This document shows, one piece after another, positions 3,758 through 64,000 of a DNA stretch of 64,000 nt (position 1 is the first letter of the stretch; each line of letters begins with the position of its first letter). This DNA comes from Deltaproteobacteria bacterium (GTDB lineage Bacteria > Myxococcota_A > UBA9042 > DTJE01). The DNA is taken from contig JAKPTZ010000007.1 of the NCBI GenBank assembly GCA_029555025.1, forward strand, positions 1 to 64,000. The letters run 5' to 3'. The notes below the pieces were generated by a model, which did not search any database, was not told the origin of the DNA, and saw nothing but the letters and a program-made list of their open reading frames with translations. Position numbers and translations under genes: made by a program.

Positions 3758-5605
3758 CTACTGAAGCCTGACGGCGGCCGCCTTTCCCGCCTGCAGACTG
3801 ACGCGGGTCGAAAAATCGGGGCGGCCTTCGACAACGACCTTCAGCATGAAATCGACCGGTGTCGGACGATCCATGGGAACCATTATCGGCTGGTTGGTAA
3901 CGCCGCGCGGCCGGGCCTCGTTGTTCAGAAACACCTTCCCGTTCTGCGGCCCGACCACCAGCAGCCTCGCCTCGCGATAGTCGATGGAAACGCGCATCGG
4001 CGCCTTTGGCGGACTTTCGCGATCGATAAGGAATGACGTGTCGACATCTCGGCACTGATCGCAACTCGGATGGGACAGCACAAGCCGGTGACGTCCGGGC
4101 TCCAGCATCAGCCCCTCGACACGCCCGGTTCCGACGCGGCGGCCATCGACCTGAATCTGGACTGCCGGCGGATAGGCGTGAATCGAAATCGGGAACGCTT
4201 CCGGCTTGGGCACGACCTGGGGCGCGGCTTGGGGCGCGGCCTGGGGCTCGACCTTTTCCGGCTGCACCTGGACATCCGACGCCTGCTGGCCTGGCGCTGC
4301 TCCGTACGGCCGTACCCTGATCATCGGGCGTATCCTCGCGGGAAGCGGACCGTCCAGCCCCCGACGGGAAGGCCCCATCTCGAACGCAACCCGCCGCTGG
4401 ATCGACATGGCTGCGGAGAAGTCGGCCTGATCGACGTTGCCGGGATATCCACGCTGTCGGCTCATCACCAGCAGAGCCCCGGCCGAAAGAAGGCCGATTA
4501 CGCCGACGAAAAAGGCGATCCTTATCAACCTGACGCGCTTGACGCTTTTGCGGACCGCCGACATCAGGCGAATGGCCTCTTCCGATTCCGGAAGGATTTG
4601 GATGGCGGTGTCGGCTTCGCGGATGGCCATTGCCTGGCGCCCGGCGGCAAGATACCTGCGACCGAGGGCGACGCGTCCCTGACAGACGCGATGCCTCATT
4701 TCAACCGACTGGACGGCGGGAGCCGAGAAAAAGCGCTTCATCTCCTCGGGCAGAGGGCCGATCCCGACCGAGGCGAGAACGCCCGCGATGGATTCCGCGA
4801 CCTCGCCGGCCGACTGGAATCGCCGGTCCGCATCCCGGGCCATCATCCTGGCAAGAATCGCCCACAAGTCGTCCGGAAAGCCGCGAACCCTTCCCCTGAT
4901 GTCGGGTACCCGGGCCTCGCTGATGGCGCGAAGAAGGCCGGATGGCGTGTCCGAATTGAACGGAAGCGAACCGGAAGAAAGCAGGAAGAACAGCGTGCCA
5001 AGCGAAAAGACGTCCGTCCTTGCGTCAAGGGCCTTTCCGTCAACCTGCTCGGGCGACATGTGGGCCGGCGAGCCGACGATGGCCCCCGTGACCGTCAGGT
5101 GTTCCATGTCAACGACATGGGCGATGCCGAAATCCATCAGTTTCAGAACGCCGCCCGCGCCGACCATGATATTTTCCGGCTTGACGTCCCGATGCACGAC
5201 CCCGTTGGCATGTGCGTGCTCCAGGGCGCCGGCGACCACGGCGGTCACCATGGCGGCAACCTCCGGAATCATGGGCCCGTGCATCGCCAGGTATTCGGCA
5301 AGGGAAATGCCCTCGACCAGCTCGGTGACAATCAGGGCATCCTCGGAATCGGGGGCGGCACCCTGCGGGAGATTTCCCGAATAATCATAAACTTCGACTA
5401 TGTTTTCGTGCTTGAGCTTCGCGATGACGCGCGCCTCGCGGCAGAAGCGTTCGCGCGCGTCCTGGCGCTTCAGCAGGTGACTGTGCATCACCTTGACCGC
5501 GACCGGACGATTCAGGGTAGTGTCGATCCCGCGATAAACAACGGCCATGCCGCCCCGGCCTATCTCGCGATCAATTTCATACCTGCCAAGATATGTCCGA
5601 CCCAT
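3758..5605 (-). CDS. Membrane-anchored Ser/Thr protein kinase with PEGA-like C-terminal region
   Basis: This 615-residue eukaryotic-type kinase has a complete catalytic domain: glycine loop IGRGGMAVVY (15-24), Lys38 of VAVKVM, HRDVKPEN (138-145), DFG (158-160) and SPE (184-186). A transmembrane helix lies around 360-381. The C-terminal part is extracytoplasmic or periplasmic, with a Pro/Ala/Gln-rich linker containing a tandem QAAP repeat and then a PEGA-like beta domain (about 475-540). The kinase would sense envelope state and phosphorylate cytoplasmic targets. It is monocistronic by position, beyond the atp operon and divergent from the DUF465 gene. The PEGA call is by pattern only. Confidence 0.93.
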   Translation of the reverse strand: MGRTYLGRYEIDREIGRGGMAVVYRGIDTTLNRPVAVKVMHSHLLKRQDARERFCREARVIAKLKHENIVEVYDYSGNLPQGAAPDSEDALIVTELVEGISLAEYLAMHGPMIPEVAAMVTAVVAGALEHAHANGVVHRDVKPENIMVGAGGVLKLMDFGIAHVVDMEHLTVTGAIVGSPAHMSPEQVDGKALDARTDVFSLGTLFFLLSSGSLPFNSDTPSGLLRAISEARVPDIRGRVRGFPDDLWAILARMMARDADRRFQSAGEVAESIAGVLASVGIGPLPEEMKRFFSAPAVQSVEMRHRVCQGRVALGRRYLAAGRQAMAIREADTAIQILPESEEAIRLMSAVRKSVKRVRLIRIAFFVGVIGLLSAGALLVMSRQRGYPGNVDQADFSAAMSIQRRVAFEMGPSRRGLDGPLPARIRPMIRVRPYGAAPGQQASDVQVQPEKVEPQAAPQAAPQVVPKPEAFPISIHAYPPAVQIQVDGRRVGTGRVEGLMLEPGRHRLVLSHPSCDQCRDVDTSFLIDRESPPKAPMRVSIDYREARLLVVGPQNGKVFLNNEARPRGVTNQPIMVPMDRPTPVDFMLKVVVEGRPDFSTRVSLQAGKAAAVRLQ

Positions 5606-5789
5606 CCGCCGGCCCCTCGGAAACGCCCCGGGATTTATCCGGATTCAATACCACCCCGAACACACATGTTGGAAGAAAAAAATTTAATCGCCCGGCCGCC
5701 GCTGGCGATGATGCGAAGGGCGGCGTCTTGACCGCCGCGCCGCTGTGGTCTAAATTCCAAAATTCAGGCTCTTGCATAAGAGGTGGCCG

Positions 5790-6005
5790 ATGTCCGAAGA
5801 ACATGAAGCGACGGGAATGACGACCGAAAGGCTCGAGGCACTCCGCGGCGAACACCGCAAGCTGGATCTGGCAATCAAGGAAATGACCGCGCGCCCGTAT
5901 CTGACAGCCGACGAGCAGATTGAAGTTGCAAGCCTTAAGAAACGCAAACTTATGATGAAGGACGAAATCTTCAGGATGGCTACCGCGCTGGGCGTCGAGC
6001 CCTGA
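5790..6005 (+). CDS. DUF465 (YdcH-like) small protein
   Basis: A 71-residue, charged, helical protein. The segment from LRGEHRKLDLAI to LKKRKLMMKDEI matches the DUF465/YdcH pattern, a short antiparallel coiled coil of unknown function that is common in proteobacteria. The ATG at 5790 has AGAGGTGG upstream. An internal ATG at MTTERL is an alternative start. It diverges from the kinase gene and precedes the HU gene by about 220 bases. Confidence 0.8.
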   Translation: MSEEHEATGMTTERLEALRGEHRKLDLAIKEMTARPYLTADEQIEVASLKKRKLMMKDEIFRMATALGVEP

Positions 6006-6089
6006 TTTCACCCTTCAATAAAATCAACCACTTACATCACCGGAATTATTTAATGCCGCGAATTCGCTGAATTAAGTGAAAAAAACCTC

Positions 6090-50366: not shown

Positions 50367-51797
50367 TTGAGACTTGCCTGCATTTACGTCCCGTTCGGAC
50401 ACATGCCTTTCCAGGAAAACCTGCGGGTGGTCGATGAGGACTTCGGGCGACTGCCGCCGCTGAGCCTGCTTTATGCCGCGGCGATCGCCGAAAACGCCGG
50501 CCATGAAGTACTGCTGATCGACGCCAACGTTTCAAGGATGCCTTACGAAGAAGTCGTCGCGCAACTTGAGCAGTTCAAGCCCCAGGCCATGGCGTTCACG
50601 CTTTCGACATACGCGTTCACATCGACAGTTGAGTGGATGGGGCGGCTGAAGAACCATTTCCGGGTTCCGACCATCGCCGGCGGTATCAACCCGCGCCTGT
50701 ATCCCGTCGAAACAATTGCCAATCCGGCGATTGATTACTGCGTGCTTCACTTCGCGACGCGCGGCTTGCCGGCGCTGCTTGACGCAATCGAACACGGACG
50801 CGATCCGGCCGGCCTCCCGGAAGTCGTGGCCCCCGGACCGGACGGGAACCCGATCACCGGCTCTGTCGATGAGACTTTGAACCCATATGACTTCCTGCCC
50901 TTCCCGGCACGCCACCTGGTCGACAATTCGAAATATCACTCCTTCATATCGCAACGCCGGAACTTCACGGTCGCGGTCACATCGACAGGGTGCCCGTTCA
51001 ACTGCACTTTCTGCGCAATCGCCCCGCTGCCACTGTTTCAAAACCCTGTTGATCGGGTGCTTGCGGAAGTGGCCGAATGCGTAGCCAGGTACGACATCCA
51101 CGAAATCGACTTCTTCGATGCCGACTTCTTTGCCAACCGTAAACGTGGGATCGATCTGTGCAACGGGATCCGGGGGCTTGGCCTTGATCTGGAATGGTCG
51201 TGCAGAACCCGAGTCGATATCATCAACGAGGAAGTCCTGGACGCGGCCGCGGCATCTGGCTGCAGGCAGATGTACCTTGGCATCGAAACCCCGGATCCGA
51301 AGGCCCAGGAACTGATGCGCAAGCGGGTTCACGTGGATCGTGTCCGCGGCGTGCTTGAAATGATGAAGAAAAAGGGCATCCGCCCGCTTGGTTTCTTCAT
51401 GCTGGGCGTTCCTGGCGAGACGGTCCTTTCGGCAACCCAGACGATCCGGTACGCCATGGATCTGCCTCTGGATTACGCCCAGTTTTCGCGGATGATCCCG
51501 AAGCCCGGCAGCGGAATCCATCGTGAACTGGTCAAGGTAATCGGCGATGACCCGTGGAAGAGGCACATTCTTGGCGAAACACGGCTTGATCGGCTGCCGA
51601 ACATCTGGTCCAGGATCGATGAAAAGACGGTCGAACTGCTTACGAAACTGGCATACATTTCCTTCTACTACAGGCCTGGATACATAATCAGGGCGCTTGC
51701 CAGGATCCGCAGCGCGGACGAACTCTCGCGCAGCGCAAAGACCGCCATCAGGATGATTCTGGATCTTGGCCACTTCGATGAAAACGGGCGCAAGTGA
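50367..51797 (+). CDS. B12-binding-fold radical SAM protein (BchE-like), first copy
   Basis: A 476-residue protein starting at TTG 50367 with GGGGGGA upstream. The N-terminal cobalamin-type Rossmann domain (about 1-150) lacks the DxHxxG His, as is usual for this class. The radical SAM motif is CPFNCTFC (Cys209, Cys213, Cys216), followed by DFFDADFFAN and GIETPDPKAQELMRK. Class members do methylations, ring formation or rearrangements, often in anaerobes. It diverges from the minus-strand radical SAM gene with a 117-base gap between. It is followed by the DUF362 gene. Confidence 0.9.
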   Translation: MRLACIYVPFGHMPFQENLRVVDEDFGRLPPLSLLYAAAIAENAGHEVLLIDANVSRMPYEEVVAQLEQFKPQAMAFTLSTYAFTSTVEWMGRLKNHFRVPTIAGGINPRLYPVETIANPAIDYCVLHFATRGLPALLDAIEHGRDPAGLPEVVAPGPDGNPITGSVDETLNPYDFLPFPARHLVDNSKYHSFISQRRNFTVAVTSTGCPFNCTFCAIAPLPLFQNPVDRVLAEVAECVARYDIHEIDFFDADFFANRKRGIDLCNGIRGLGLDLEWSCRTRVDIINEEVLDAAAASGCRQMYLGIETPDPKAQELMRKRVHVDRVRGVLEMMKKKGIRPLGFFMLGVPGETVLSATQTIRYAMDLPLDYAQFSRMIPKPGSGIHRELVKVIGDDPWKRHILGETRLDRLPNIWSRIDEKTVELLTKLAYISFYYRPGYIIRALARIRSADELSRSAKTAIRMILDLGHFDENGRK

Positions 51798-51825
51798 CGT
51801 CCGGCCATGCGGCAGGGGTTGATTC

Positions 51826-53001
51826 ATGAACGGTTCCGGCACGGTTGCGGCCGTACGCTGCGCTTCATACGAAGACTGCGCCGAACCGATACTGCGCGCA
51901 ATCGAGCTTGCCGGAATCCTGCCGGAACTGCGGGGCCGACGCGTCCTGCTGAAGCCAAACATGATGAAGGGGGTACCGCCGGAACGGGCCGAGGCGACCA
52001 ATCCGGTCTTCGTCGGTGCCCTGGTTCGCCTGCTGAAAGATCATGGGTGCACGGTAACGGTTGGTGATTCAAGCGGAATCCTTGGATTCACCAGCGAAGT
52101 CTTCGATGCCTCGGGAATGACGGAACAGGTGACGGCCAACGGCGGTCAGGTGATCAACTTCGACGCCGGCCCTTTCTTCGAGATCGACCTTGGAGGCGCC
52201 TTTGGCGGCGTGCGCCGGCCGGTGGCAAGGGCTTTGCTGGAAGCGGACGCCGTGCTGGACGTCCCGAAGGTGAAGACCCACACGTTCCTGGAACTCACCC
52301 TTTCCGTGAAGAACCTGGTGGGTGTCTTTCCCGGTGCGGTCAAGTGCGGCCTTCATACGCTGGCCCCGGATCGCGAGGTCTTCTCGGGACTGGTGGCCGG
52401 CATTCCAGCCGCCCTGCAGGCGGCCGGCGTCAACATCGCCGGCTCGGTCGTCGATGGTGTGCTGGCCCTTGGAGGCAGGGGAGGATCGGTTCCTCCGGCA
52501 CCAACCTGGATGAACGTGGTGGCCGCCGGCAGGAACCTTTTCGATGTTGACGCGTGGTGCGCGCACGCCGCCGGTTTCGGAATGAACGATGTCCCGCTTT
52601 GCAGGATCGGCGCCGCGGCCGGGTTCGGGGCGGCGTCCGTTGAAGCAATCCATGTCGTCGGCGATGTAATCGAACCGGTTCGATTGAAGAGGCCGGGACG
52701 CGATATCCAGGAAACATCGACCGTCCTGACAAGCGCATACTACAAGGCGCGCGGCAGGCTGGTCAGGCCGGTTTTCGACGGCGGTCGTTGCACCGACTGC
52801 GGCAGGTGCGACGAAGTATGCCCCGAGCGGTGCATCGTGGTCGTCGGGCCACGGGATCGCAGGATTTCCGACGCTTGCACGCGCTGCCTGGCTTGCCGGG
52901 AGGTCTGTCCGTCGGGCGCGATGGGACTTGTCGCGAACCGGGCGCTGAAGCCATTCCTGAAAAGCCGCGCGCGCGGCCTTAAGATGGATCGGCTGCGCTG
53001 A
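51826..53001 (+). CDS. DUF362 protein with C-terminal 2[4Fe-4S] ferredoxin domain
   Basis: A 391-residue protein. The DUF362 domain (about 5-300) includes RRVLLKPNMMKGVPPE and DVPKVKTHTFLELTLSVKNLVG. The C terminus has two clusters: CTDCGRCDEVCPERC (about 321-335) and CTRCLACREVCPSGA (about 352-366). Such proteins are presumed electron-transfer or iron-sulphur partners for radical enzymes. Between two B12-type radical SAM genes in one direction, it probably reduces or serves them. ATG 51826 is 28 bases after the preceding stop. Confidence 0.9.
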   Translation: MNGSGTVAAVRCASYEDCAEPILRAIELAGILPELRGRRVLLKPNMMKGVPPERAEATNPVFVGALVRLLKDHGCTVTVGDSSGILGFTSEVFDASGMTEQVTANGGQVINFDAGPFFEIDLGGAFGGVRRPVARALLEADAVLDVPKVKTHTFLELTLSVKNLVGVFPGAVKCGLHTLAPDREVFSGLVAGIPAALQAAGVNIAGSVVDGVLALGGRGGSVPPAPTWMNVVAAGRNLFDVDAWCAHAAGFGMNDVPLCRIGAAAGFGAASVEAIHVVGDVIEPVRLKRPGRDIQETSTVLTSAYYKARGRLVRPVFDGGRCTDCGRCDEVCPERCIVVVGPRDRRISDACTRCLACREVCPSGAMGLVANRALKPFLKSRARGLKMDRLR

Positions 53002-53021
53002 AGCGGCCTGCGGGGGACGAA

Positions 53022-54467
53022 TTGAACGACCTTTGCCCGACCGTGCTTGTGAATCCAGGAATCGTCCAGGCGGGGCCTGTCGCGCAGAAGGTATTTCCAC
53101 CGATTGGCCTGATGTACCTGGTCGCGGCCCTGAAGCAGGCAGGCTTGCCGGTTCGCCTGATCGACGCGAACGCGACCGGTGAGGACGACGACGCGGTCGT
53201 TTCACGGCTGCAAGCGATGCAGCCCCTGGCGGTCGGGCTTCCGGTCTTCGACATCACGCTTGTGCAGACCGCTCGGCTGGCGCGGGCCATCCGTGCCGGG
53301 TTTCCACGCGTGATCCTTTTCGCGGGCGGTCCGGCCGCCACGGTCGATCCCGCGCGGACAATCGCCATGATTCCGGAAATCGATTACGTGCTGGCGGGCG
53401 AGGCCGAGGAATCAATCGTCCGGTTTGTCAGGGGCCTGCGGGCCGGCGAGGTCCCGTCCGGAATCCCCGGCCTTTTCGCTGCCGGGCACAATCTGCCGGA
53501 CGACCACCCGCCCCAGCCGGCCAGGATACTCGACCTTCAGGCAATTCCCCTGCCGGATCGGGAATGCGTGCGGGAAAACTACGAGGCCAGGCGATACTAC
53601 ACGGTACTCGTCCCGGATCGGCACATCGACTGCGTGGTCACCAGCCGCGGCTGCCCCCACCGATGCGCGTTCTGTTACAACTGGCGGTTCAGGCAGGCAT
53701 ACCGATCGCCCGACAGTTGCCTTGAAGAATTCGAGATGCTGCGCGCGCGCGGCGTTACAACCATCGAAATCCTTGATGACAATTTCACCACCGACCGGGA
53801 TCGGGCAATGACGATCCTCGAATCGGTCGCCGCGATGAGGATGCCGGTACGGTTCAGGATCAAGGCACGCGCGGACGCGATCGATGAAGGACTGATGAAG
53901 GCGGCAAGGCGGGCCGGCGTCTATCAGGTCAGCATCGGCGCGGAGTCGGGTTCCCCCGAGATGCTCTGCCGGATGAAGAAGCGCCTGACGCCGGACGTGA
54001 CGGCGCGCGCGGTCGAAACCGTGATGAAGTCGGGCGCGTACTGCCATACCAGCTTCATCGTGGGATTTCCCGGCGAGACGCGCCAGACGATGGACGACAC
54101 GGTGAAGATGATCAAGGCGGTCAGGCCGACATCGGTCTCGATCGACGTGCTGGCCCCTTATCAGGGAACATCGGTTTATGAAATGGCGAAGGCCGACGGG
54201 ACGCTCCAGGGCGACTGGTCAGCCAGTCCGGGTGACCCGCTGCCATGGATCCGCCTCGACTGGACGACGACCAGGAAGGATCTTGAAGACGCCCGCAAGG
54301 CCATGCTCTTCAGGGTATATTTCAACCTGCGGTACATGACGCGATACGCCGCGATGATAATCGGTGGAATGAATCCGACCATGGGCCGTTACCTTGTCCA
54401 GGAAGCCATCGCAACACTGCCGGGGGCCCGCGGGCTGCCTGCCGAACACCAAAAGGGCAACGAATGA
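53022..54467 (+). CDS. B12-binding-fold radical SAM protein, second copy
   Basis: A 481-residue protein starting at TTG 53022 after GGGGGACG. B12-like N-terminal domain (about 5-145) with LIDAN in place of DxHxxG, then the radical SAM motif CPHRCAFC (Cys211, Cys215, Cys218). Downstream landmarks include LDDNFTTDRDRA, IGAESGSPEML and GFPGETRQT. It ends in an ATGA-type overlap with the third copy. Reaction unknown. Confidence 0.9.
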   Translation: MNDLCPTVLVNPGIVQAGPVAQKVFPPIGLMYLVAALKQAGLPVRLIDANATGEDDDAVVSRLQAMQPLAVGLPVFDITLVQTARLARAIRAGFPRVILFAGGPAATVDPARTIAMIPEIDYVLAGEAEESIVRFVRGLRAGEVPSGIPGLFAAGHNLPDDHPPQPARILDLQAIPLPDRECVRENYEARRYYTVLVPDRHIDCVVTSRGCPHRCAFCYNWRFRQAYRSPDSCLEEFEMLRARGVTTIEILDDNFTTDRDRAMTILESVAAMRMPVRFRIKARADAIDEGLMKAARRAGVYQVSIGAESGSPEMLCRMKKRLTPDVTARAVETVMKSGAYCHTSFIVGFPGETRQTMDDTVKMIKAVRPTSVSIDVLAPYQGTSVYEMAKADGTLQGDWSASPGDPLPWIRLDWTTTRKDLEDARKAMLFRVYFNLRYMTRYAAMIIGGMNPTMGRYLVQEAIATLPGARGLPAEHQKGNE

Positions 54468-55927
54468 TTGACGGGATTCTGAAGAAGGTCGGGCTTGACC
54501 TGAAGATCGACAGGGACGCCGGGCCGGCCGTGATATTGGCCAGGATACCTTCATGGATCGATTCGCGACACACGCATCCGGAAAACTGCGAGGCCCCGCT
54601 GGATCTTGGCTACTGCTGCACCGCCGCATCGGTGCGCGGGTTCGTTCCGGTTCTTCTGGATCTTGAAACCGGCGTTATCTCATCGACCGACCTGATCGAG
54701 TCAGTCCGCCGGCTTTGCCCCGCGGCCGTTTTCCTTTCCGGCATCACGCCCGCCGTCCAGGCGATGCTGGACATCGCTTCGAAGGTTCGGGCCGCGGCGC
54801 CTGACTGCCTTGTGGTTGCCGTTGGCCAGCACGCGGACTACTCGCCTGGCACCTTCCTTTTCCCGGGGTCGCCGTTCTCCTTAACGACCGTGGGCGAATT
54901 CGAGGAAACCGTCGGCGAAGTCCTTGCGGCCCTCCGCGACGGGCATGACCCGAGGGTGGCCGGCACCAGGTCCATTCAGGGCACAAGTCTTGTCACCCAC
55001 GGCGAGCGCCCGGCGACGACCGACCTCGACGGACTCGGCATGCCGGATCACCGATTTTTCCTTTCGCCGGTCTATCGGTACCTGCACCCGATGCGGACGC
55101 CGGTCAGGCGCAGGTGGGGCTTCGTCCAGGCTTCACGCGGCTGTCCGTTTTCATGCATCTACTGTTCCAAAACGCTTCGGACATCGTTCGGCCCGACAAT
55201 CCGCAACCGCAGCCCGGAATCGGTGATTGACGAAATGCGCTGGCTGAATCGCCACGGAATCACCACGGTCGTCTTCACGGACGATCTTTTCAATTCGTCG
55301 AAGGAACGGGTGATGCATCTGTGCGAAGCCATCCTGTCGTCCGGCCTGAAGATGGGTTGGACCGCGGAAGGGCGCGTCAAGCCGACCGACCTGGAGATGT
55401 TCAAGATGATGCGCCGGGCCGGGTGCTCGACGTTTTCGATGGGCGTGGAAAGCGGCTCGCCGGCGATTCTGCGGACACTCGACAAGAAGGCGACCGTCGC
55501 CGAGGCGGAACGGGCTTTCGCGCAGGCACGCGAAGCCGGCCTTCTCCGCGTGGCCTTCTTCATGGTCGGATGCCCGGGGGAAACCAGGTACGATTTCGAA
55601 ATGACGCGTGCCCTGCTTCGACGGCTGAAGCCGGAAATGATCCAGGTTGCGAATTTTACGGCCTACCCCGGTTCACGGGCATACGAAAGCTACCTGAAAT
55701 CGATGAACCTGCCGTGGGAACGCTTCCAGCATTATGAAAGGCTGACCAATCTCAGCGCCGAATCGGACGAGATGGTCAGGCAGTGGCAGAAGACGCTTTA
55801 CATGGATCTGCTGACAGGCGGGGATTTCGCCTTCAGGTACGTCCTTAAGCAGAACGTCGGAATGCTTCTTAACCTTGACCGCGAAATCTCTTTCGCCATG
55901 AAGGCGGCAAGAAAGCTGCTGCAATAA
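54464..55927 (+). CDS. B12-binding-fold radical SAM protein, third copy
   Basis: A 487-residue protein with an N-terminal B12-like fold (about 20-155) and the radical SAM motif CPFSCIYC (Cys227, Cys231, Cys234). Later landmarks are FTDDLFNSSKERV, GVESGSPAILRTL and VGCPGETRYD. Its start overlaps the previous gene by four bases. Its 3' end overlaps the convergent YfhO-like gene by 59 bases, so the two messages are partly antisense. Substrate unknown. Confidence 0.9.
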   Translation: MIDGILKKVGLDLKIDRDAGPAVILARIPSWIDSRHTHPENCEAPLDLGYCCTAASVRGFVPVLLDLETGVISSTDLIESVRRLCPAAVFLSGITPAVQAMLDIASKVRAAAPDCLVVAVGQHADYSPGTFLFPGSPFSLTTVGEFEETVGEVLAALRDGHDPRVAGTRSIQGTSLVTHGERPATTDLDGLGMPDHRFFLSPVYRYLHPMRTPVRRRWGFVQASRGCPFSCIYCSKTLRTSFGPTIRNRSPESVIDEMRWLNRHGITTVVFTDDLFNSSKERVMHLCEAILSSGLKMGWTAEGRVKPTDLEMFKMMRRAGCSTFSMGVESGSPAILRTLDKKATVAEAERAFAQAREAGLLRVAFFMVGCPGETRYDFEMTRALLRRLKPEMIQVANFTAYPGSRAYESYLKSMNLPWERFQHYERLTNLSAESDEMVRQWQKTLYMDLLTGGDFAFRYVLKQNVGMLLNLDREISFAMKAARKLLQ

Positions 55928-57968
55928 TCCAAAGGAAGGCTGCCACAAGTCCGGCGCCGCCGACCACAAGACCGGCAAAGGCCGCCGACGGCCTGTATTC
56001 CCAGACAACCGTGTGCTTTCCTGCCGGCAGATCGACAGCCCGGAAGAGGTACCACGAAGTGGCAGGCGCGGCGGGCCGCCCATCGACCGTGACGCGCCAA
56101 CCGTCGGCCATCGCGTCCGAAACCACCAGCCTTGATGTCGACGGGGCATCGACCTCGACCCGCACCCTGGCTGCTTCGTAATCGACAATCCGGACTTTTC
56201 CGGCGGCCAGGCGAGGCGGCGGGGTTGACGGATCGATCACGAAGGAAAGGTCTTCGACGCGCGCGGACGCGGCTGAGTCGTTTTGAATCAGGAAGGCCCG
56301 TTCAAAGGCCTGGGCATTGCGGTAAATGAAGTATCCCCGGTCAGCAGTCATGCAGGTCGAATCCGGCCTGGACACCACCGGGATCCACCCTTCGGCGGCG
56401 ACTTCACTGCCCGAAATCAGCGTGGTCACGCCCGCGACATCCCAGAACGCCAGGCCCAGCCCGGCCGGGTCAAGCACGGGACCCACGTTTGAATCCTGAC
56501 GGATGGCCTGGGCATTTTCGGGCGTGATGGCGGACATCACCGCCGCGTACCTGGCCGGAAGGCTGGTTGCAAGCACCTGGACGTCGAACAGTTGCGCGGT
56601 GACCGTCAACGAAGGATACATCGCGCGCGTATCGAACCGCAGCAAGCGGCCCATCGGCGGCGTGGCATCGCGGATGTCCTTCAGGCACTCCTGATCGATG
56701 GCCTGGACGAACCCTGCCGGTTGCTGCAGGCGATAGACGATTTCATACGGCGCCGACCAGACAGGCCAAAGCGCCATCGCGCCGCACATGAAAAGCGCGA
56801 TCCTGCCCGATCGGCCGGCCCAGTTCGACGCGACACCGACCGCAAGGCCCAGCGCGACGGCGGCCAACACCGGAAATGGCGACACGAAATACTTCGAACT
56901 CAGCTTGAAATGCTCGAACATCGGCACGATCGCATGCCACAGGCGCACGATCGGCGTGTTCGTGATGGTCAGAACGAAGAGGATGGAAAGGATGAAGACC
57001 CCCCTTTCCAGCCATCTGCGGCGCATCGGCAGAAGAACGACAAGGACGGCTGCCGGTCCAAGGATGGTCAGGGCATACCCGATAAGATCCTCGTCAAACT
57101 CGGGGCGCGACGGATCGGCGAAGACGTGAAGGGTCGATTGGATATTGGCCGCAAGCGGAAGAAGCTGGACGGACGCCACGGCCAGCGCGACCGCAAGCCA
57201 GCCGGCGCCACCGGCCAGAACTGACTTCCATGGCGTTTCCCGGCGCGGCCATCCTTCGCCGATTACATAAAGCGCCCCAAGGGCAAGTCCGAAATAGACG
57301 CCCTGCGGATGCCCGGACAGCGCCGCGCAACCGGACGCGATGCCCGCCGCCGGGAACGCCCACGCGGACTTCCTTCGAACCGCGAAGGCCAGCAGGAAAA
57401 GACCGATCATCGACCAGTCGGTTGCCACGTGATGGATCAGGAGTTCTTCCGCCGGCGGGTACCGAAGCACAAGCGACGCATAGACCGCGGCGCCCGCGAC
57501 CGATCCTGCCGAACCGACGCCGAAAAGCCACAGGAACCCGAAGGCGGCCATGGCCCCGGCGATGCCCATGACGATGGAACGCCAGGAAAGAACGACAGTA
57601 TCGGCCGCAACACCGCGGAAAACCGCCATGAAAGGATCAAAGACCAGGGCGTCGGGATCTGCGGCAAGCGGCAGTCCGAAGGCCGGCCACGGATTCATCA
57701 ACGGAAGGCTGCCGACGGCTGTCTGGCGACCGACTTCGGCGTGAAGCGGCAGGTGAACCGACGTCTCGTCTGTGGGAGGATTTTCCAGATGCGTGTGAAA
57801 AAGTACCCGGCCGTCAAGGACGACCGGCCAGGCAAAGGCAAGAACGACCGCGCACACGACACCCAGCGCAACAAGCGGAACAAACCACCGGCGACTGGTC
57901 AGGCTGTTCCAGGGTGCGGACACCGGGCCTCCTTGACGGACGACATCAATCGGCGATATCGGCGACAC
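55869..57968 (-). CDS. YfhO-like polytopic membrane protein
   Basis: A 699-residue protein with about 11-13 transmembrane segments and two periplasmic beta regions. The C-terminal region RVTVDGRPAAPATSWYLFRAVDLPAGKHTVVWEY followed by a last helix is typical of YfhO-family proteins (PF09586), which belong to the GT-C superfamily and are linked to lipid- or polymer-bound sugar transfer. It overlaps the end of the CotH gene by 23 bases and is the last gene of the VTC/CotH cassette. Confidence 0.82.
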   Translation of the reverse strand: MSPISPIDVVRQGGPVSAPWNSLTSRRWFVPLVALGVVCAVVLAFAWPVVLDGRVLFHTHLENPPTDETSVHLPLHAEVGRQTAVGSLPLMNPWPAFGLPLAADPDALVFDPFMAVFRGVAADTVVLSWRSIVMGIAGAMAAFGFLWLFGVGSAGSVAGAAVYASLVLRYPPAEELLIHHVATDWSMIGLFLLAFAVRRKSAWAFPAAGIASGCAALSGHPQGVYFGLALGALYVIGEGWPRRETPWKSVLAGGAGWLAVALAVASVQLLPLAANIQSTLHVFADPSRPEFDEDLIGYALTILGPAAVLVVLLPMRRRWLERGVFILSILFVLTITNTPIVRLWHAIVPMFEHFKLSSKYFVSPFPVLAAVALGLAVGVASNWAGRSGRIALFMCGAMALWPVWSAPYEIVYRLQQPAGFVQAIDQECLKDIRDATPPMGRLLRFDTRAMYPSLTVTAQLFDVQVLATSLPARYAAVMSAITPENAQAIRQDSNVGPVLDPAGLGLAFWDVAGVTTLISGSEVAAEGWIPVVSRPDSTCMTADRGYFIYRNAQAFERAFLIQNDSAASARVEDLSFVIDPSTPPPRLAAGKVRIVDYEAARVRVEVDAPSTSRLVVSDAMADGWRVTVDGRPAAPATSWYLFRAVDLPAGKHTVVWEYRPSAAFAGLVVGGAGLVAAFLWIIAAAFLPPSWRKRFRGQG

Positions 57969-59493
57969 GGGCCGGAATCCAAGCCTTCAATGCCTGAACC
58001 GCCGCATCGTGTTCTTCCTTCGTATATGGCTTCCTGGGATCGCTTTCAACGTACGAAGCGATGGCATCGCCCACCGACGTGACCATGTCAACAAGGCCGG
58101 CTCCGGCAACAAGCGCGGGAATCGACTCGAAAGCACCCTGCATCATCCCGCTGCAGACCGGATTGGCAAAGCAGGACGTGCAGAACACCGACGTGCACGT
58201 ATCAAAGGCGGGGGTCTCGACGAAAGTCCTGTCGGTTCCCCACGGCATCATCGTGAAAACGCCGTCGTCGTCGCTGTGCAGGAAGAAATTGTTGGCCGCC
58301 ATCGAATACCCGTCGGTATGGGCGATGAAGGCCTCGATGGCCCACATCTTCGTCATCGACGCCATGTCGGCGACTTCCGAGACGCCTTCATGCCAGCCGG
58401 ACGTGGAAGCGATACGCTCCATCAACTTTTCCAGATCCGCAACGTCCAGCTTGTCACCGTCCTCGACGTCGAACTTGCCGATCTGACCGGCATAAAGGTC
58501 GCCGGTGCCCTCGTACAGGTGCTGGGTGGATGCAAAATTGAACGTCGTGAACTGATCGTCGTAATTTTCCACCAGCACGTACAGCCCGTAGTCCTGGCCG
58601 TTTACGCGAACCTGGGCGTAACCGGTGCGGGGCGCGGGGATCCCGGCTTCGCGGAAAAGCTTGTACGCCAGCGTTTCGTGCATCATCGTGCGGTCGTCAA
58701 CCATGTTGTTCAGAGTGAAGTTCTTCATTCCAAGCACGCGATCGCCGACCGCGTAACCGTCGGCCTTAATCTTGAAGGCGGCCTTGGCGGTCAGGGGCTG
58801 GAACGAATACCCGCTCTTCAGGCGGACGCCGACCGGCTGGCCGCTGACCGTCTTTCCGGCGACCGTCACGCTGACGACACCGGAAACGTACTCATACGGA
58901 TCGGTGGTCAGGCCGGACACCGCATCGGAACCGAGGGTGATTTCGAACAGGTTCACGACGCCCGGATCAAACAGCTCGTCCGGCGTGTCGGGATTTTCAA
59001 TATTCGCCGTTCCCTGGGTCGGCAGCGTGACGGTGAAGGCGCCGGTTCCGTCCGGGCTGCGTCCCCACGTGAATCCATCCGGCACCGCGGTCACATCGGT
59101 GACGTCGATCACCTTCTTCGAAGGATCCATCAGGAAGACAGACTCGTCGTCGCACTTGATGCCGAAATCGAAACCTTCCCTGGTTTCGCTTGCGCCCTTG
59201 ACGACCAGGTATCCGCCCGGCCTGACTATCGAGCCGGCGGGCAGCGCGTAGTAATGGTCGGTCTTGTCCAGTCCGTCGGTCACAATCCATCCGGCAAGAT
59301 CCGCGACCATGTCACCGACATTCACGATTTCAATCCAGTCGGTTCCGTGGCAGTCGATTTCGTTCAGTCGAACCTCGCTTTCGACCGGAACCACGTCGTC
59401 CGTTACATCCCCGACCGGGTTCGAATCACCGCCGCAACCGACGAATGCGACCAGCAACGACAGGAAAAAGGCAACCGATACTGCATTCTTCAT
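57946..59493 (-). CDS. LTD-CotH kinase-like lipoprotein
   Basis: A 515-residue lipoprotein (lipobox AFVGC). A lamin-tail domain follows (about 38-150: RLNEIDCHGTDWIEIVNVGDMVADLAGW...). A CotH kinase-like domain follows (about 175-505) with FTLNNMVDDRTMMHETLAYKLFREAGIPAPR, VNGQDYGLYVLVENYDD and the metal/ATP motif MPWGTDRTF, where Asp-rich PWDxD is usual. A Cys-rich insert is near CTSVFCTSCFANPVC. CotH proteins phosphorylate surface proteins in Bacillus spore coats. Its ATG overlaps the VTC stop (ATGA). Confidence 0.88.
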   Translation of the reverse strand: MKNAVSVAFFLSLLVAFVGCGGDSNPVGDVTDDVVPVESEVRLNEIDCHGTDWIEIVNVGDMVADLAGWIVTDGLDKTDHYYALPAGSIVRPGGYLVVKGASETREGFDFGIKCDDESVFLMDPSKKVIDVTDVTAVPDGFTWGRSPDGTGAFTVTLPTQGTANIENPDTPDELFDPGVVNLFEITLGSDAVSGLTTDPYEYVSGVVSVTVAGKTVSGQPVGVRLKSGYSFQPLTAKAAFKIKADGYAVGDRVLGMKNFTLNNMVDDRTMMHETLAYKLFREAGIPAPRTGYAQVRVNGQDYGLYVLVENYDDQFTTFNFASTQHLYEGTGDLYAGQIGKFDVEDGDKLDVADLEKLMERIASTSGWHEGVSEVADMASMTKMWAIEAFIAHTDGYSMAANNFFLHSDDDGVFTMMPWGTDRTFVETPAFDTCTSVFCTSCFANPVCSGMMQGAFESIPALVAGAGLVDMVTSVGDAIASYVESDPRKPYTKEEHDAAVQALKAWIPARVADIAD

Positions 59494-60332
59494 CGAAAGA
59501 GCCTCCTGGAAAGGTCGATGGCCGGATTCCTGGCCTGGGGCCTGTTAAAGCACATGAAGTGGTCAACCGCCTGGCAGTACTTCGAAAAACCGCGTCGGGA
59601 CAGGTCGAATCTGCCGATCATCCCCATCACCCATGTCGGAACGCTGGTTTCGGTCTTGATTTCCACAAGAACGGGCGACTCATCTTCGACATGCAGCGCC
59701 GTCGCCCCGTCATCATAATAGATGTACTGCCGGCCGTGATCCAGTTTCGAGGAACCTTCGGCCATGCAGTACGAAAGCTGGCGATCAAACGTGATCCTGG
59801 CATACGCATTGACGTCGCTGACGTAAGGCTCGCGCTGATATTTCACGAAAAGAAACGGTGCCGCGCCGAACGTGATGACAGCATCCTCGAACGATTCGAC
59901 GACCTTGACCCGCCTGGCCGCCGTTCGCGCCCCGTTCAATCCCGGCTCAACCCTTCCAGGCTCTAACCGGTTAGCCATAAACAGGTCGTCCCAGCCGCCG
60001 ACCGGTATGCGCCGGCGAATCTTCCATGTGACGTTTGCCACCTTGTGCTTCAGTTCAAGCCACAGGAACCCGTCCGAGCCATCACCGTAGAAGCGGCACC
60101 TCGGCTTGAACCTGGTGAACCTTTTCAACCGGGTGTCGTTGTAGAACCGAAGATCCGGGGTTTCGAAGTACAGGTTGTTGACGACATAGCGCCCGTCGGG
60201 ATCGACATGCCTGTCGGGCGAACAGAAGGCACTGATGTAATCGCGCATCGCGGGGACGACCGACGACGGAACAAGGTACTTCGATTCGTACCTGCTGATG
60301 ACCTCGGTCCTGTTGCCTTCCACCGGAAGCAA
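59490..60332 (-). CDS. VTC domain polyphosphate-polymerase-like protein
   Basis: A 280-residue VTC domain without membrane segments. It has RYESKYLVP at the N terminus, basic residues in LKRFTRFKPRCRFYGD, WLELKHKV and KIRRRIP lining the tunnel, and VLVEIKTETSVPTW late in the chain. VTC proteins make or handle polyphosphate or another nucleotide-driven polymer. It lies four bases from TolC on one side and overlaps CotH on the other. The VTC-CotH-DUF4956 set recurs in bacteria. Confidence 0.93.
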   Translation of the reverse strand: MLPVEGNRTEVISRYESKYLVPSSVVPAMRDYISAFCSPDRHVDPDGRYVVNNLYFETPDLRFYNDTRLKRFTRFKPRCRFYGDGSDGFLWLELKHKVANVTWKIRRRIPVGGWDDLFMANRLEPGRVEPGLNGARTAARRVKVVESFEDAVITFGAAPFLFVKYQREPYVSDVNAYARITFDRQLSYCMAEGSSKLDHGRQYIYYDDGATALHVEDESPVLVEIKTETSVPTWVMGMIGRFDLSRRGFSKYCQAVDHFMCFNRPQARNPAIDLSRRLFR

Positions 60333-60335
60333 ACC

Positions 60336-61667
60336 TCACTCGCCAAGGAGTTCCCCGAAAGTATCGAAACCGGCCGCCTCGCAGAGGTCAAGCAGGGCTT
60401 CAACGTATTCCCGCCTGGCATCGACCATCATCCATTCCAGTTCGGCGCCGGAAAGCTCCAGGTCGATGACCTCTTCTTCCGATATCCCCTTCGACCTGGC
60501 CACGGCCGCCATCCGCTCGACATCTTCCCTGGCCTTCGCGACATGATCCTTCAAGGTCACCCATGCGGCCCTGGCGGCCGACGCCTGCGCGAAATCCTGG
60601 CCAATCCGCTTCCTGACCTGGTCGATCCCGGCGGAACCGTTGTCTTCCCGGCTGGCCAGGGCCATTTCGGCCCGTCTCAGCTTGTGGCGACCCCAGTTGA
60701 AGACAGGGATTTCAATTCCGAAGGACAGTTCGCCCCAGTCCCTGTCGCGGCTTTCGTAATGATATGCGGCCTGGACGAACCTGAAGGTCGGTATCATGTC
60801 CAGCACCTCGGCCCTGCGCGAAGCCCGCGCCAGTTCGGTCCGGCGCGCCTCCAGTGCCAGTTCGGGACGAACCGACTCGGCCCTTTTCATGATTGCGTCA
60901 AGTTGCGGCTCGCCTTCCGGCAGTTCAAACCCGGCCGCATCGACCGGGGAATCGTTTCCGACAATGGCGGCCAGGGCCTGCCTGGCGGCGCCGAGTGCCT
61001 TCTGCAGGCTTGCCACGTCGCGCCTTGCCTTCAAAAGGGACGTCTGGGCCTTCATGCTGCGAACGAACGGCACCGTTCCAAGATCCGCAAGCCTTGAGAG
61101 CACATCAACCCGACGGGCCTCCAGGGCTTCCCGCCGCTGCGCGGCGACGACTTCGTCCTTCAACAGCAGGACATCGAAAAAGGCCTGCCTGGCCTGGCCG
61201 ATCACCTCTATCCGGTACTCGAATTCATCAACGCACGCATCCTGGTATTCCCACCTGGCAAGCGCGACGTTTTCCCCGACTTCGCCGAACCGCGGAAGAT
61301 GCCATCGCAAACCGATCTGGAAACGGTGGTTCGCGTCGGAATCGAAGTATTCGGTCGAAAGATCCTGGATCCGCAGTTCCGGATTGCGGACGTCGTACTT
61401 CGCGAAGTCGGCGCCGACCTTGCGGGCACTGGCCCTCTGGCGAAGGCGCTGGAGTTCCGGGCTTGAATCGACTGCGGCCTGGACGACTTCGCCTTCCGAC
61501 ATGACAAGTCCGGAAAATCCGTCATCGGAAGCCGGATCAGAATCGGCGCCAGGGGCGGGCGCGCCTTTGGCGCCGTCCCCAAAGGATTCCAGGGCCACTG
61601 CCGTCAACGAAGGCAACAGCAGCACGACAAGAATGACTGCCGCACCACGCCAAATCATCGTGACCAC
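60336..61667 (-). CDS. TolC-family outer-membrane efflux protein
   Basis: A 443-residue exported protein with a signal peptide, an acidic Gly/Ala/Asp-rich start, and two repeats of long helices. Landmarks are SSPELQRLRQRASARKV, HRFQIGLRWHLPRFGEVG and LSFGIEIPVFNWGRHKLRRAEMALASRE, typical of TolC/OEP proteins. It would be the outer-membrane channel partner of the adaptor encoded upstream, whose stop overlaps its start by 13 bases. Confidence 0.92.
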   Translation of the reverse strand: MVTMIWRGAAVILVVLLLPSLTAVALESFGDGAKGAPAPGADSDPASDDGFSGLVMSEGEVVQAAVDSSPELQRLRQRASARKVGADFAKYDVRNPELRIQDLSTEYFDSDANHRFQIGLRWHLPRFGEVGENVALARWEYQDACVDEFEYRIEVIGQARQAFFDVLLLKDEVVAAQRREALEARRVDVLSRLADLGTVPFVRSMKAQTSLLKARRDVASLQKALGAARQALAAIVGNDSPVDAAGFELPEGEPQLDAIMKRAESVRPELALEARRTELARASRRAEVLDMIPTFRFVQAAYHYESRDRDWGELSFGIEIPVFNWGRHKLRRAEMALASREDNGSAGIDQVRKRIGQDFAQASAARAAWVTLKDHVAKAREDVERMAAVARSKGISEEEVIDLELSGAELEWMMVDARREYVEALLDLCEAAGFDTFGELLGE

Positions 61668-63760
61668 CTGGAAGTATGGAAAAGCGCCGGGGCGTCACCG
61701 GTGTCCATCACGACGGTGAACGAATCGCCTTCCGTCACGCACAGGCCTTCCGGCTTCAGTCCGCGATACTCGAACAGAACGCTGGCGACATACCCGCCCT
61801 GAACCGGCTGCAACCGCAGAAGGCGGCCGATCTGATCCGGATCGGGTGCGTCCGGCACCGTCGAAAGCACGTAGATGCCGTCTGCCGTAACCAGAAGATC
61901 CGAAATCGAAGCCGGCCTTTCCCTGACGCGGCCAAGATCGACCTTTGCAAAAACCGAAAGCTGGCCCGGTGCAAGCTTGCCCGAAGCAAGGAATGAATCC
62001 GGATTCTTCAGGCGCCAGATTATTGAACCTTCCGGCCCGACCGGCTGCTTCAGGCCGATCAGCATGGCCGGTTCTGAACCTGCAAGATCCCACGACGCGC
62101 CCTCGATATTCAGGACGTCCAGCCCGGATCCGTCCTTGACGATGCCAAGGGCCGCAACCTGTTCAGGCCCAAGTTGCATCACCGCATCAAAAAGCGCGGC
62201 CGAAGCGACGACGCGGAAATCCCGCCCTTCCCTTGCAACCTTCAGGATTTGCTGCCTTACCGGCTTGCGCTTGCCCTTGCGGTTGGCGTTGTTCGAACTG
62301 ACCAGGTATATGCCGCCGTCGGGCGATGCGGTAATGGCCTCCAGGTCGTTGAGTTCCGCGACACCCTGAAGGACGACAGGCTTCGGATCGACCGCACCGA
62401 AACGATCCATCAGGAAGAGCCATGGAGAATGACGGGCCTTCCCGGCACCGGTGTCGTCGCTGACGATCAGGTATCTTTCAATGTCGGCCAGCCAGATAAG
62501 CCCGGAAGGCTCGAAACTGCCTTCAAAGCCGGATGCCGGGGCGTACCGGATCTTCTGAAGGGCCGACGCATCCAGGGTCACCGTCGAACCGGACGTCTCG
62601 ACCATCGGCACGTCGCCGCTGGCCGGGGCCGCATCGGGCTGCCTGGTTCCAGGCGCCTTCTGATGATCGATTGCGTTCGCTATTGCGTCGGTGACGCCGA
62701 TCATGGAATCCTGCATCTCGACTCGGACGGCTTCGCCCGGCATCAGCGCGTGCGGCCGATCGACCTGGATCCTGAACTTCCGGGCCCAGTAAAGGTTGCC
62801 GCGGAACGAAAGACGAAGCGGAATTGCCTGGTAACCTGGATCGACGGCCACGATCACGCCGGTAGCGTTCTGGGCCATCTGACGGTGCGGATACAGGTTG
62901 ACGCGCTGACCGATCTGCGGAAGCTGGCCGGAGGTCTCGGGAACGTACGCATCGACATAATTTATCGCGGTTTCCTCGATGTTTATGACCGGAACGAAGT
63001 TATCGACCGTGTCGCCCGCCATGTTCACCAGGTTCACCACGCGACCGTCCGTCGGGGAAATGATGGTGCGATTGGCACGCCGGGCCTGCACAATCTGCAG
63101 GTTAACCCTGATTTCGTTCATCTTTTCGTGATTTTCGCCAAGCATCGACCGGACGACTTCCTCACGCTCCGCGACCTTGTCGCGCCCATCATCGCCCGAA
63201 CCGGCCCCCTTTGATTTCAGGATCGGCTTCTGCGCGGCGATCACCCTTTCCAGGGTGTCACGACGTATTATCAAATCCGAAAGATCCCTGGATCTGCCAA
63301 GCCCTGCATCCTGGGCCGACTGCAACCTGGCGATTTCCTGTTTTACCGAATCGAGTTCGGCCTTCTTTTCAACCAGGTCGGTATGCTTCAGGTAGATGTT
63401 CAGGGCATCGGCCTCGCGCTGGGTCAGCAGCTTGTCGAATTCCAGCCCGAAACGGATCCGATCCGCGTTCAACTGGGCCTCGCGACGAGATAGCTCGGCG
63501 CGCAGGAGCGCCTCTTCCGCATCAAGGTCGGACATGTCCAGTTCAAGCAGCACCTGGCCCGCCGCCACGTTCTGGCCCTGAACCACGTGAATCACGGCGA
63601 TCCGGCCTTCCTCGCGAACCCCGAGCACGTGGGTGCGGCTTTCCACCAGTCCGATGAAGTCGGAGTTCGTTTCGTACCTGAAATAGATTGAAAGCACCGC
63701 CACGCCGGCAAGCGCCCAGAACGCCCAGAAGAGGTACCTTCGGTCCAGTTTCATCTTCAT
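61655..63760 (-). CDS. HlyD-type membrane fusion protein fused to a C-terminal beta-propeller-like domain
   Basis: A 701-residue protein. A transmembrane helix (about 9-27) precedes a biotinyl-lipoyl half (RIAVIHVVQGQNVAAGQVLLELD) and a coiled coil (about 75-205). The second lipoyl half carries ISPTDGRVVNLVN, and a beta-barrel region runs to about 365. The C-terminal 295 residues (from about 405) form a second domain with repeated strands and motifs EPSGLIWL, NDLEAITASPDGGIYLVSS and KPEGLCVTEGDSFTVVMDTG, like DUF3616/SdiA-regulated propellers. Adaptors normally end after the barrel, so this is an unusual fusion. No inner-membrane ABC or RND gene is next to it. Confidence 0.85.
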   Translation of the reverse strand: MKMKLDRRYLFWAFWALAGVAVLSIYFRYETNSDFIGLVESRTHVLGVREEGRIAVIHVVQGQNVAAGQVLLELDMSDLDAEEALLRAELSRREAQLNADRIRFGLEFDKLLTQREADALNIYLKHTDLVEKKAELDSVKQEIARLQSAQDAGLGRSRDLSDLIIRRDTLERVIAAQKPILKSKGAGSGDDGRDKVAEREEVVRSMLGENHEKMNEIRVNLQIVQARRANRTIISPTDGRVVNLVNMAGDTVDNFVPVINIEETAINYVDAYVPETSGQLPQIGQRVNLYPHRQMAQNATGVIVAVDPGYQAIPLRLSFRGNLYWARKFRIQVDRPHALMPGEAVRVEMQDSMIGVTDAIANAIDHQKAPGTRQPDAAPASGDVPMVETSGSTVTLDASALQKIRYAPASGFEGSFEPSGLIWLADIERYLIVSDDTGAGKARHSPWLFLMDRFGAVDPKPVVLQGVAELNDLEAITASPDGGIYLVSSNNANRKGKRKPVRQQILKVAREGRDFRVVASAALFDAVMQLGPEQVAALGIVKDGSGLDVLNIEGASWDLAGSEPAMLIGLKQPVGPEGSIIWRLKNPDSFLASGKLAPGQLSVFAKVDLGRVRERPASISDLLVTADGIYVLSTVPDAPDPDQIGRLLRLQPVQGGYVASVLFEYRGLKPEGLCVTEGDSFTVVMDTGDAPALFHTSRWSR

Positions 63761-63765
63761 ATCGG

Positions 63766-64000
63766 TCAGACCTCAACCGTCGTCTGTTCGTTCACATAGA
63801 CAAGGCCCTTCATGCCGTCGATTCCCTCGAGCCGCGCCAGAAGGTCGTCGCAATCCTGAGGCTTCCTGAAGCGAACCTGGTACGCGAAGTCCATGTAGTC
63901 GCCCTGGGCAACGCTGCGCTTCGAAACAAGGGCGAAGTGGGCCGTCAGGTCGCGGAAGACCTGCGAGACGGCAGCCGATGCCGCCGGGTCGGCGGGCACC
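63766..64000 (-). CDS. DUF4956-like protein, C-terminal part only (runs off right edge)
   Basis: The last 78 codons of a minus-strand gene with its stop at 63766. The pattern FALVSKRSVAQGDYMDFAYQVRFRKPQD...LARLEGIDGMKGLVYVNEQTTVEV matches the soluble tail of DUF4956 proteins, in which a membrane part precedes a small ACT-like domain. DUF4956 commonly accompanies VTC and CotH, and here it is five bases from the adaptor start, so it is probably the first gene of this operon. Only the tail is visible, so the family call is tentative. Confidence 0.6.
   Translation of the reverse strand, partial: VPADPAASAAVSQVFRDLTAHFALVSKRSVAQGDYMDFAYQVRFRKPQDCDDLLARLEGIDGMKGLVYVNEQTTVEV

Follow-up and report, generated by a model that had tools for sequence, protein, structure and literature searches.

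Synthase-dependent secretion, the route taken by alginate, cellulose and Pel, couples polymer synthesis in the cytoplasm to envelope-spanning export and uses no separate pump. In yeast, the VTC complex couples polyphosphate synthesis to translocation (PMC9911596). Here we describe an operon that encodes a VTC-domain protein together with a DUF4956 protein, a HlyD-type periplasmic adaptor and a TolC-family outer-membrane channel (OEP), located in a 64,000-nucleotide stretch of DNA from a Deltaproteobacteria bacterium (the window; positions 1-64000 of a 78,775-base contig in a Myxococcota genome of 3.49 Mb that is 97.6% complete). Very probably, these genes form one envelope-spanning system. The reading that we favor for the operon, a synthesis-coupled exporter of inorganic polyphosphate, stands at about an even chance. 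Its generalization falls somewhat short of that: a secretion machine, widespread among diderm bacteria, that would have a polyphosphate polymerase and an MgtC-like protein where a tripartite exporter has its pump, with polymerization driving polyphosphate through both membranes.

Organization and conservation of the operon

Open reading frames and family profile matches revealed six minus-strand genes in the order DUF4956-HlyD-OEP-VTC-CotH-YfhO (contig 55869-64446; Table 1). Every gene named in the initial annotation was present on this strand with a match to its family profile. The junctions, +5, -13, +3, -4 and -23 bp in operon order, agree with the translational coupling proposed there, and, judged by this spacing, the six genes are one transcription unit. 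The VTC-CotH-DUF4956 cassette described in the same annotation has all its members, which are not contiguous: HlyD and OEP separate DUF4956 from VTC. These are the only VTC and DUF4956 genes of the genome. The DUF4956 gene is cut at the window edge and complete on the full contig, which was read rightward to 78 kb. This reading found a two-component pair upstream of the operon and no pump gene on either side, upholding the earlier claim that a pump is missing and ruling out one merely hidden beyond the window edge.

Conservation was assessed in two sets of loci: 80 Myxococcota VTC loci with about 9 kb of flanking DNA, analyzed through six-frame translations and iterated profiles, to which the window was added as the 81st; and 80 named DUF4956 loci, some of them Myxococcota loci common to both sets. 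The named loci span at least 11 diderm phyla (Myxococcota, Pseudomonadota, Kiritimatiellota, Campylobacterota, Verrucomicrobiota, Fidelibacterota, Lentisphaerota, Bdellovibrionota, Gemmatimonadota, Calditrichota and Ignavibacteriota) as well as KSB1. Kinship among loci and genomes inflates all p-values given here. Of 284 Myxococcota genomes searched for both families, 134 yielded VTC and 136 DUF4956; 130 carry both, four only VTC and six only DUF4956 (Fisher 1.6e-67; genomes not independent). Near VTC at the 81 loci lie DUF4956 (77), HlyD (59), OEP (34), CotH (31) and the propeller described below (26), counts made with profiles grown from the window proteins, which undercount OEP in particular. 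Unbiased clustering of neighbors at the Myxococcota VTC loci returned DUF4956, HlyD, OEP and CotH alone as widely recurrent. Among the named DUF4956 loci, 77 have HlyD, 69 VTC, 59 a recognized OEP channel and 11 CotH. Where VTC is missing from a named locus the contig stops before its expected place, with one exception in which VTC lies just past the distance limit. HlyD immediately follows DUF4956 at 132 of 135 loci.

The constant core in relatives is VTC, DUF4956, HlyD and, usually, the channel; its conservation across phyla rules out chance co-location. The proposal that adaptor and TolC belong with VTC was borne out, the two being linked to VTC in most relatives and many phyla. Neither of the findings named beforehand as counting against it was made: adaptor and TolC are not generally absent beside VTC in relatives, and no dedicated, unrelated pump lies immediately upstream. 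Requiring every locus to match the OEP profile proved too strict, given that the OEP slot in Campylobacterota, Bdellovibrionota and some Gammaproteobacteria holds a protein of about 400 aa with a signal peptide, which resembles OEP weakly at best.

Two main gene orders were observed, VTC-DUF4956-HlyD-OEP and the DUF4956-HlyD-OEP-VTC of the window. One genome (G065) has both, at loci L036 and L037, which suggests two separately acquired copies. In a tree, the nearest relatives of the window adaptor, besides members of its own family, belong to Neomarinimicrobiota, Calditrichota, Ignavibacteriota and Gemmatimonadota. Taken together, these observations suggest that the cassette has moved horizontally. 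No phage homologues of VTC or DUF4956 were found.

The missing pump was sought with E. coli AcrB, MacB, EmrB and MsbA as queries. At 134 loci that have both DUF4956 and HlyD, the operon never includes a gene for an ATP-binding cassette (ABC), resistance-nodulation-division (RND) or major facilitator superfamily (MFS) pump; a pump gene occurs within 3 kb at seven, on the opposite strand in six of these. Applied as a positive control to the six other adaptor genes of the host genome, these queries found five with a neighboring RND or ABC pump; the sixth is at a contig end. Different pumps often share a TolC protein, so that adaptor and channel might serve an ordinary efflux pump encoded elsewhere, their linkage to VTC being incidental. 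The persistence of this linkage across phyla, the adjacency of DUF4956 and HlyD and the fact that the host's pump adaptors have their own pump next door make this very improbable; in addition, 45 of 47 system adaptors were placed apart from pump adaptors in a tree, although the separating branch is weakly supported.

The route across the envelope

The modeled adaptor comprises a barrel-sandwich, a long helical hairpin and a beta-barrel, and matches EmrA (4tko, 6e-17) and MacA. Its HlyD_D23 profile match is 7e-8, and its match to TIGR01730 (1.3e-14) is below the cut-off. At its C-terminus is an additional propeller of about 300 aa, absent from the initial annotation, in which acidic residues and one Arg are invariant. 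The Phytase-like family (PF13449) matches 19 of 24 propeller members, with a best value of 1.5e-8 and only 0.024 for the window copy; no relatives were found in the PDB by sequence. The channel matches its family in two stretches that correspond to two OEP domains.

In the predicted structure of the DUF4956 protein (pLDDT 83), an ACT-like domain follows five long helices. MgtC sequence models match it weakly (2.7e-5 and 1.1e-3, below cut-off), and fold comparison aligned its ACT-like C-terminus with many ACT folds, the MgtC C-terminal domain 2lqj (9.6e-3) being one of them. Both arginines of its RFR motif (R85, R87) are invariant, and sequence searches of the PDB found no relatives.

In monoderm bacteria, VTC-DUF4956 occurs without adaptor or channel at all six loci analyzed (Paenibacillus, Planococcus, Nonomuraea, Acetoanaerobium, Pseudobutyrivibrio and Enterococcus), four of which have CotH, while the diderm Hymenobacter has HlyD-DUF4956-OEP. 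This pattern, drawn from a small set, is the one expected if VTC-DUF4956 were a unit of the inner membrane and adaptor and channel continued it through the outer membrane. The MgtC-type architecture of DUF4956 and the two-component system linked to the operon also fit a sensing or tethering complex that transports nothing, with DUF4956 as an MgtC-like regulator and adaptor and channel as a structural contact across the envelope. The completeness of the adaptor and TolC-type channel and the monoderm/diderm pattern favor passage across the outer membrane instead, and we regard a purely sensing complex as improbable. Export of polyphosphate is favored by the co-occurrence of VTC and DUF4956, the adjacency of DUF4956 and HlyD, the lack of a pump in the operon and the monoderm pattern. 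The initial annotation had envisaged a VTC polymer either moved or anchored through the envelope; export is the best-supported version of this, and anchoring found no support.

The remaining two genes were also assigned to the system initially, CotH as a recurrent partner. As core parts both are ruled out: CotH is present at only 11 of the 80 named loci, and the YfhO-like gene, whose YfhO match (PF09586, 2.8e-10) covers only model positions 751-834 (the last 84) of 835, was not detected at any other locus examined. The window CotH protein (PF08757, 8.3e-36; LTD, 5.9e-12) resembles a solved spore-coat kinase, 5jd9, whose WDYD motif reads WGTD in the window, with Gly for the first Asp of WDxD, which we take to be a metal-binding residue; this renders its kinase activity uncertain. 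WGTD also occurs in a relative (L042) and HGVD in two others (L077 and L083), and the window protein and these relatives may be pseudokinases linked to the export module. An upstream TDG Asp is kept and corresponds by spacing to D228, mutation of which inactivates B. subtilis CotH (PMC7821199). In Myxococcota, HlyD and CotH are anti-correlated (both at nine loci, HlyD only at 48, CotH only at 16, neither at four; p = 4e-7, no relatedness correction), the window being one of few loci with both. CotH is an accessory side branch. The host genome contains two further CotH genes (G000:C4:16008-19741).

The VTC protein and its cargo

The window VTC protein (PF09359, 2.6e-30) consists of the VTC domain alone, without an SPX or transmembrane domain. 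When the family profile was compared with solved structures, yeast Vtc4 ranked first (3g3q, 8e-25) and no solved triphosphatase scored. The window protein has R78, R80 and E224 at the positions of Vtc4 R264, R266 and E426, the three residues whose joint mutation abolishes activity of the yeast enzyme (PMC9911596). Six further tunnel residues of Vtc4, K200, K281, K294, R361, R373 and K458, are kept as K18, K95, K104, R167, R179 and K251. By these residues the active site is intact. Neither PPK1 nor PPK2 was found in the host genome; PPK1 is present in 177 of the 284 Myxococcota.

Phosphate genes adjoin several relatives. PiT phosphate transporter genes occur within the operon, or at its end, at three gammaproteobacterial loci: in L191 one (4456-6018; PF01384, 3e-94) separates the channel-slot gene from VTC, and PiT/PHO4 homologues adjoin VTC in L157 (12047-13708) and stand at the contig end of L166 (12553-12843). 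A Pst-PhoU operon adjoins L070. The control queries DtpB, GlmS, PurM and UspA gave no matches in the transporter search. Porin_O_P (OprO/OprP family) genes occur at five Myxococcota VTC/CotH loci, at least four of which lack HlyD, and are possibly an alternative outer-membrane route. All these neighbors, transporter and porin genes alike, concern few loci and are no more than suggestive of a phosphate cargo.

The TTM fold of VTC also serves triphosphatases, and DUF4956 resembles MgtC, a family of regulators rather than known transporters. One envelope-spanning exporter might carry another cargo, such as a nucleotide, a metal chelate, phosphate or pyrophosphate, with VTC either regulating DUF4956 or acting as a triphosphatase. 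We consider this unlikely, given that Vtc4 is the best solved match, that catalytic and primer-tunnel residues are kept and that no triphosphatase scored. A second alternative is a role in an extracellular glycan or other surface polymer, which VTC, DUF4956 and CotH would tune or decorate, as proposed for Gram-positive Pel accessory genes. In streptococci, clostridia and bifidobacteria, CotH-PPP-DUF4956 genes directly adjoin pel operons (PMC7112168), glycosyltransferases flank VTC-DUF4956 at the Planococcus and Pseudobutyrivibrio loci, and the window locus has its YfhO-like protein. No recurrent glycosyltransferase or polysaccharide synthase was found beside HlyD-type loci, which leaves a glycan role quite unlikely, much like a purely sensing complex. 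Polyphosphate is favored as cargo by the retained Vtc4 catalytic residues, the phosphate context, the absence of PPK1 and PPK2 and the yeast precedent.

In the model that we favor, cytoplasmic VTC would build polyphosphate from ATP, as its catalytic residues suggest, and feed the growing chain into DUF4956, a small MgtC-like inner-membrane protein that would occupy the place of the usual pump. Polymerization is assumed to provide the drive, as it does for the yeast VTC complex. The adaptor would bridge the periplasm and dock the chain to the outer-membrane channel, its periplasmic propeller may bind the phosphate polymer, sense it or trim it, and CotH and the YfhO-like protein would be optional additions at the window locus.

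Several points weigh against polyphosphate export. A literature search found no biochemical data on bacterial VTC proteins. No transport activity is on record for DUF4956, nor a solved relative for its membrane part, and the phytase-like family also includes proteins that do not act on phytate. VTC-DUF4956 lacks an adaptor at 20 of 77 Myxococcota loci, and 23 of the 57 adaptor-bearing loci have no recognized channel nearby. The PiT linkage comprises three loci, two with closely related transporters. Finally, no gene fusions among system members, including VTC-DUF4956, were found, apparent fusions in gene maps being overlapping gene calls.

The 5' end of the operon lies 133 bases from a divergent pair encoding an OmpR-family response regulator and a histidine kinase (contig 64580 onward). 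No Pho box was found upstream of the operon. Between the divergent two-component genes and the operon lies a direct repeat, CTTAAG-N5-CTTAAT (contig 64486-64502; L002:6487-6503), which we take to be a perfect PmrA/BasR-type site. The pattern YTTAAK-N5-YTTAAK has this one match in the 3.49 Mb genome and the reversed control pattern two, the repeat having been spotted by eye before it was counted. It is the likely operator of the linked response regulator, and the two-component system probably controls expression of the operon.

At its 3' end, the operon stands tail to tail with a plus-strand radical-SAM gene (54464-55927). This belongs to a plus-strand row of three successive radical-SAM proteins with B12-binding-like N-termini (window 50367-55927), within which a ferredoxin-containing protein is encoded (51826-53001), all named from sequence alone. 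In Myxococcota, PPDK_N proteins (phosphoenolpyruvate-synthase-like ATP-grasp) recur near VTC (L036, L037, L040, L061, L085 and L108; cluster c10).

Table 1. Features of the operon in the window, and porin genes at related loci
Feature	Position	Strand	Remarks
DUF4956 gene, 3' part in window	63766..64000	-	full gene contig 63766-64446, 226 aa; first in operon
HlyD/EmrA/MacA-type periplasmic adaptor with C-terminal phytase-like beta-propeller	61655..63760	-	profile, predicted structure
Adaptor part (aa 1-350)	about 62711-63760	-	N-terminal transmembrane helix, barrel-sandwich, long alpha-hairpin
Propeller part of adaptor (aa about 395-701)	about 61655-62578	-	phytase-like
TolC-family outer-membrane channel (OEP), 443 aa	60336..61667	-	PF02321, 4.3e-24
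VTC-domain protein, 280 aa, predicted catalytically intact polyphosphate polymerase	59490..60332	-	PF09359
LTD and CotH-domain protein, 515 aa, probable lipoprotein, accessory	57946..59493	-	PF08757 and LTD
Multi-spanning protein with YfhO-like C-terminus, 699 aa	55869..57968	-	PF09586, partial; last gene
Porin_O_P genes	L061:12958-14151; L063:13346-14386; L106:13491-15599; L110:7408-8499; L113:3-1103

Comparison with described systems

No publication joining the VTC domain with HlyD was found, partners being mentioned for Pel and C. perfringens loci only, nor was any description of a pump-less VTC-DUF4956-adaptor-channel export machine. DUF4956 and bacterial VTC are widespread partners without an assigned function, for which the operon offers a concrete, testable role. 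If correct, polyphosphate export would give diderm bacteria a pump-free tripartite route for placing polyphosphate on or outside the cell, explain the presence of VTC in a genome without PPK, tie bacterial VTC to the synthesis-coupled translocation of yeast and suggest a transport role for DUF4956, perhaps for MgtC-like proteins generally.

With the yeast VTC complex (Vtc1/Vtc3/Vtc4) the operon shares a homologous TTM/VTC catalytic domain with a conserved active site, likewise paired with a small membrane protein as a possible conduit. The window VTC protein differs in having neither the SPX sensor nor a transmembrane domain; its membrane partner is DUF4956 rather than Vtc1, adaptor and outer-membrane channel are added, and transport would be directed out of the cell. 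EmrAB-TolC, MacAB-TolC and AcrAB-TolC have in common with it an adaptor of EmrA/MacA fold and a TolC-family channel. In place of their MFS, ABC or RND pump the operon has DUF4956 and VTC, and its adaptor is fused to a propeller. Like the MgtC family, DUF4956 has a transmembrane bundle with a C-terminal ACT-like domain and is matched weakly by MgtC models; unlike that family, to whose cut-offs it does not rise, it has a conserved RFR motif and is tightly linked to VTC and HlyD. The Gram-positive pel-type CotH-PPP-DUF4956 loci contain the same VTC-DUF4956 pair, often with CotH (PMC7112168; PMC2879425), whereas adaptor and channel are lacking from the six monoderm versions examined. The concept of export is held in common with synthase-dependent secretion, from which the proposed system differs in that its polymerase would be VTC rather than a glycosyltransferase, and its exit TolC-like rather than a beta-barrel porin with a tetratricopeptide repeat scaffold.

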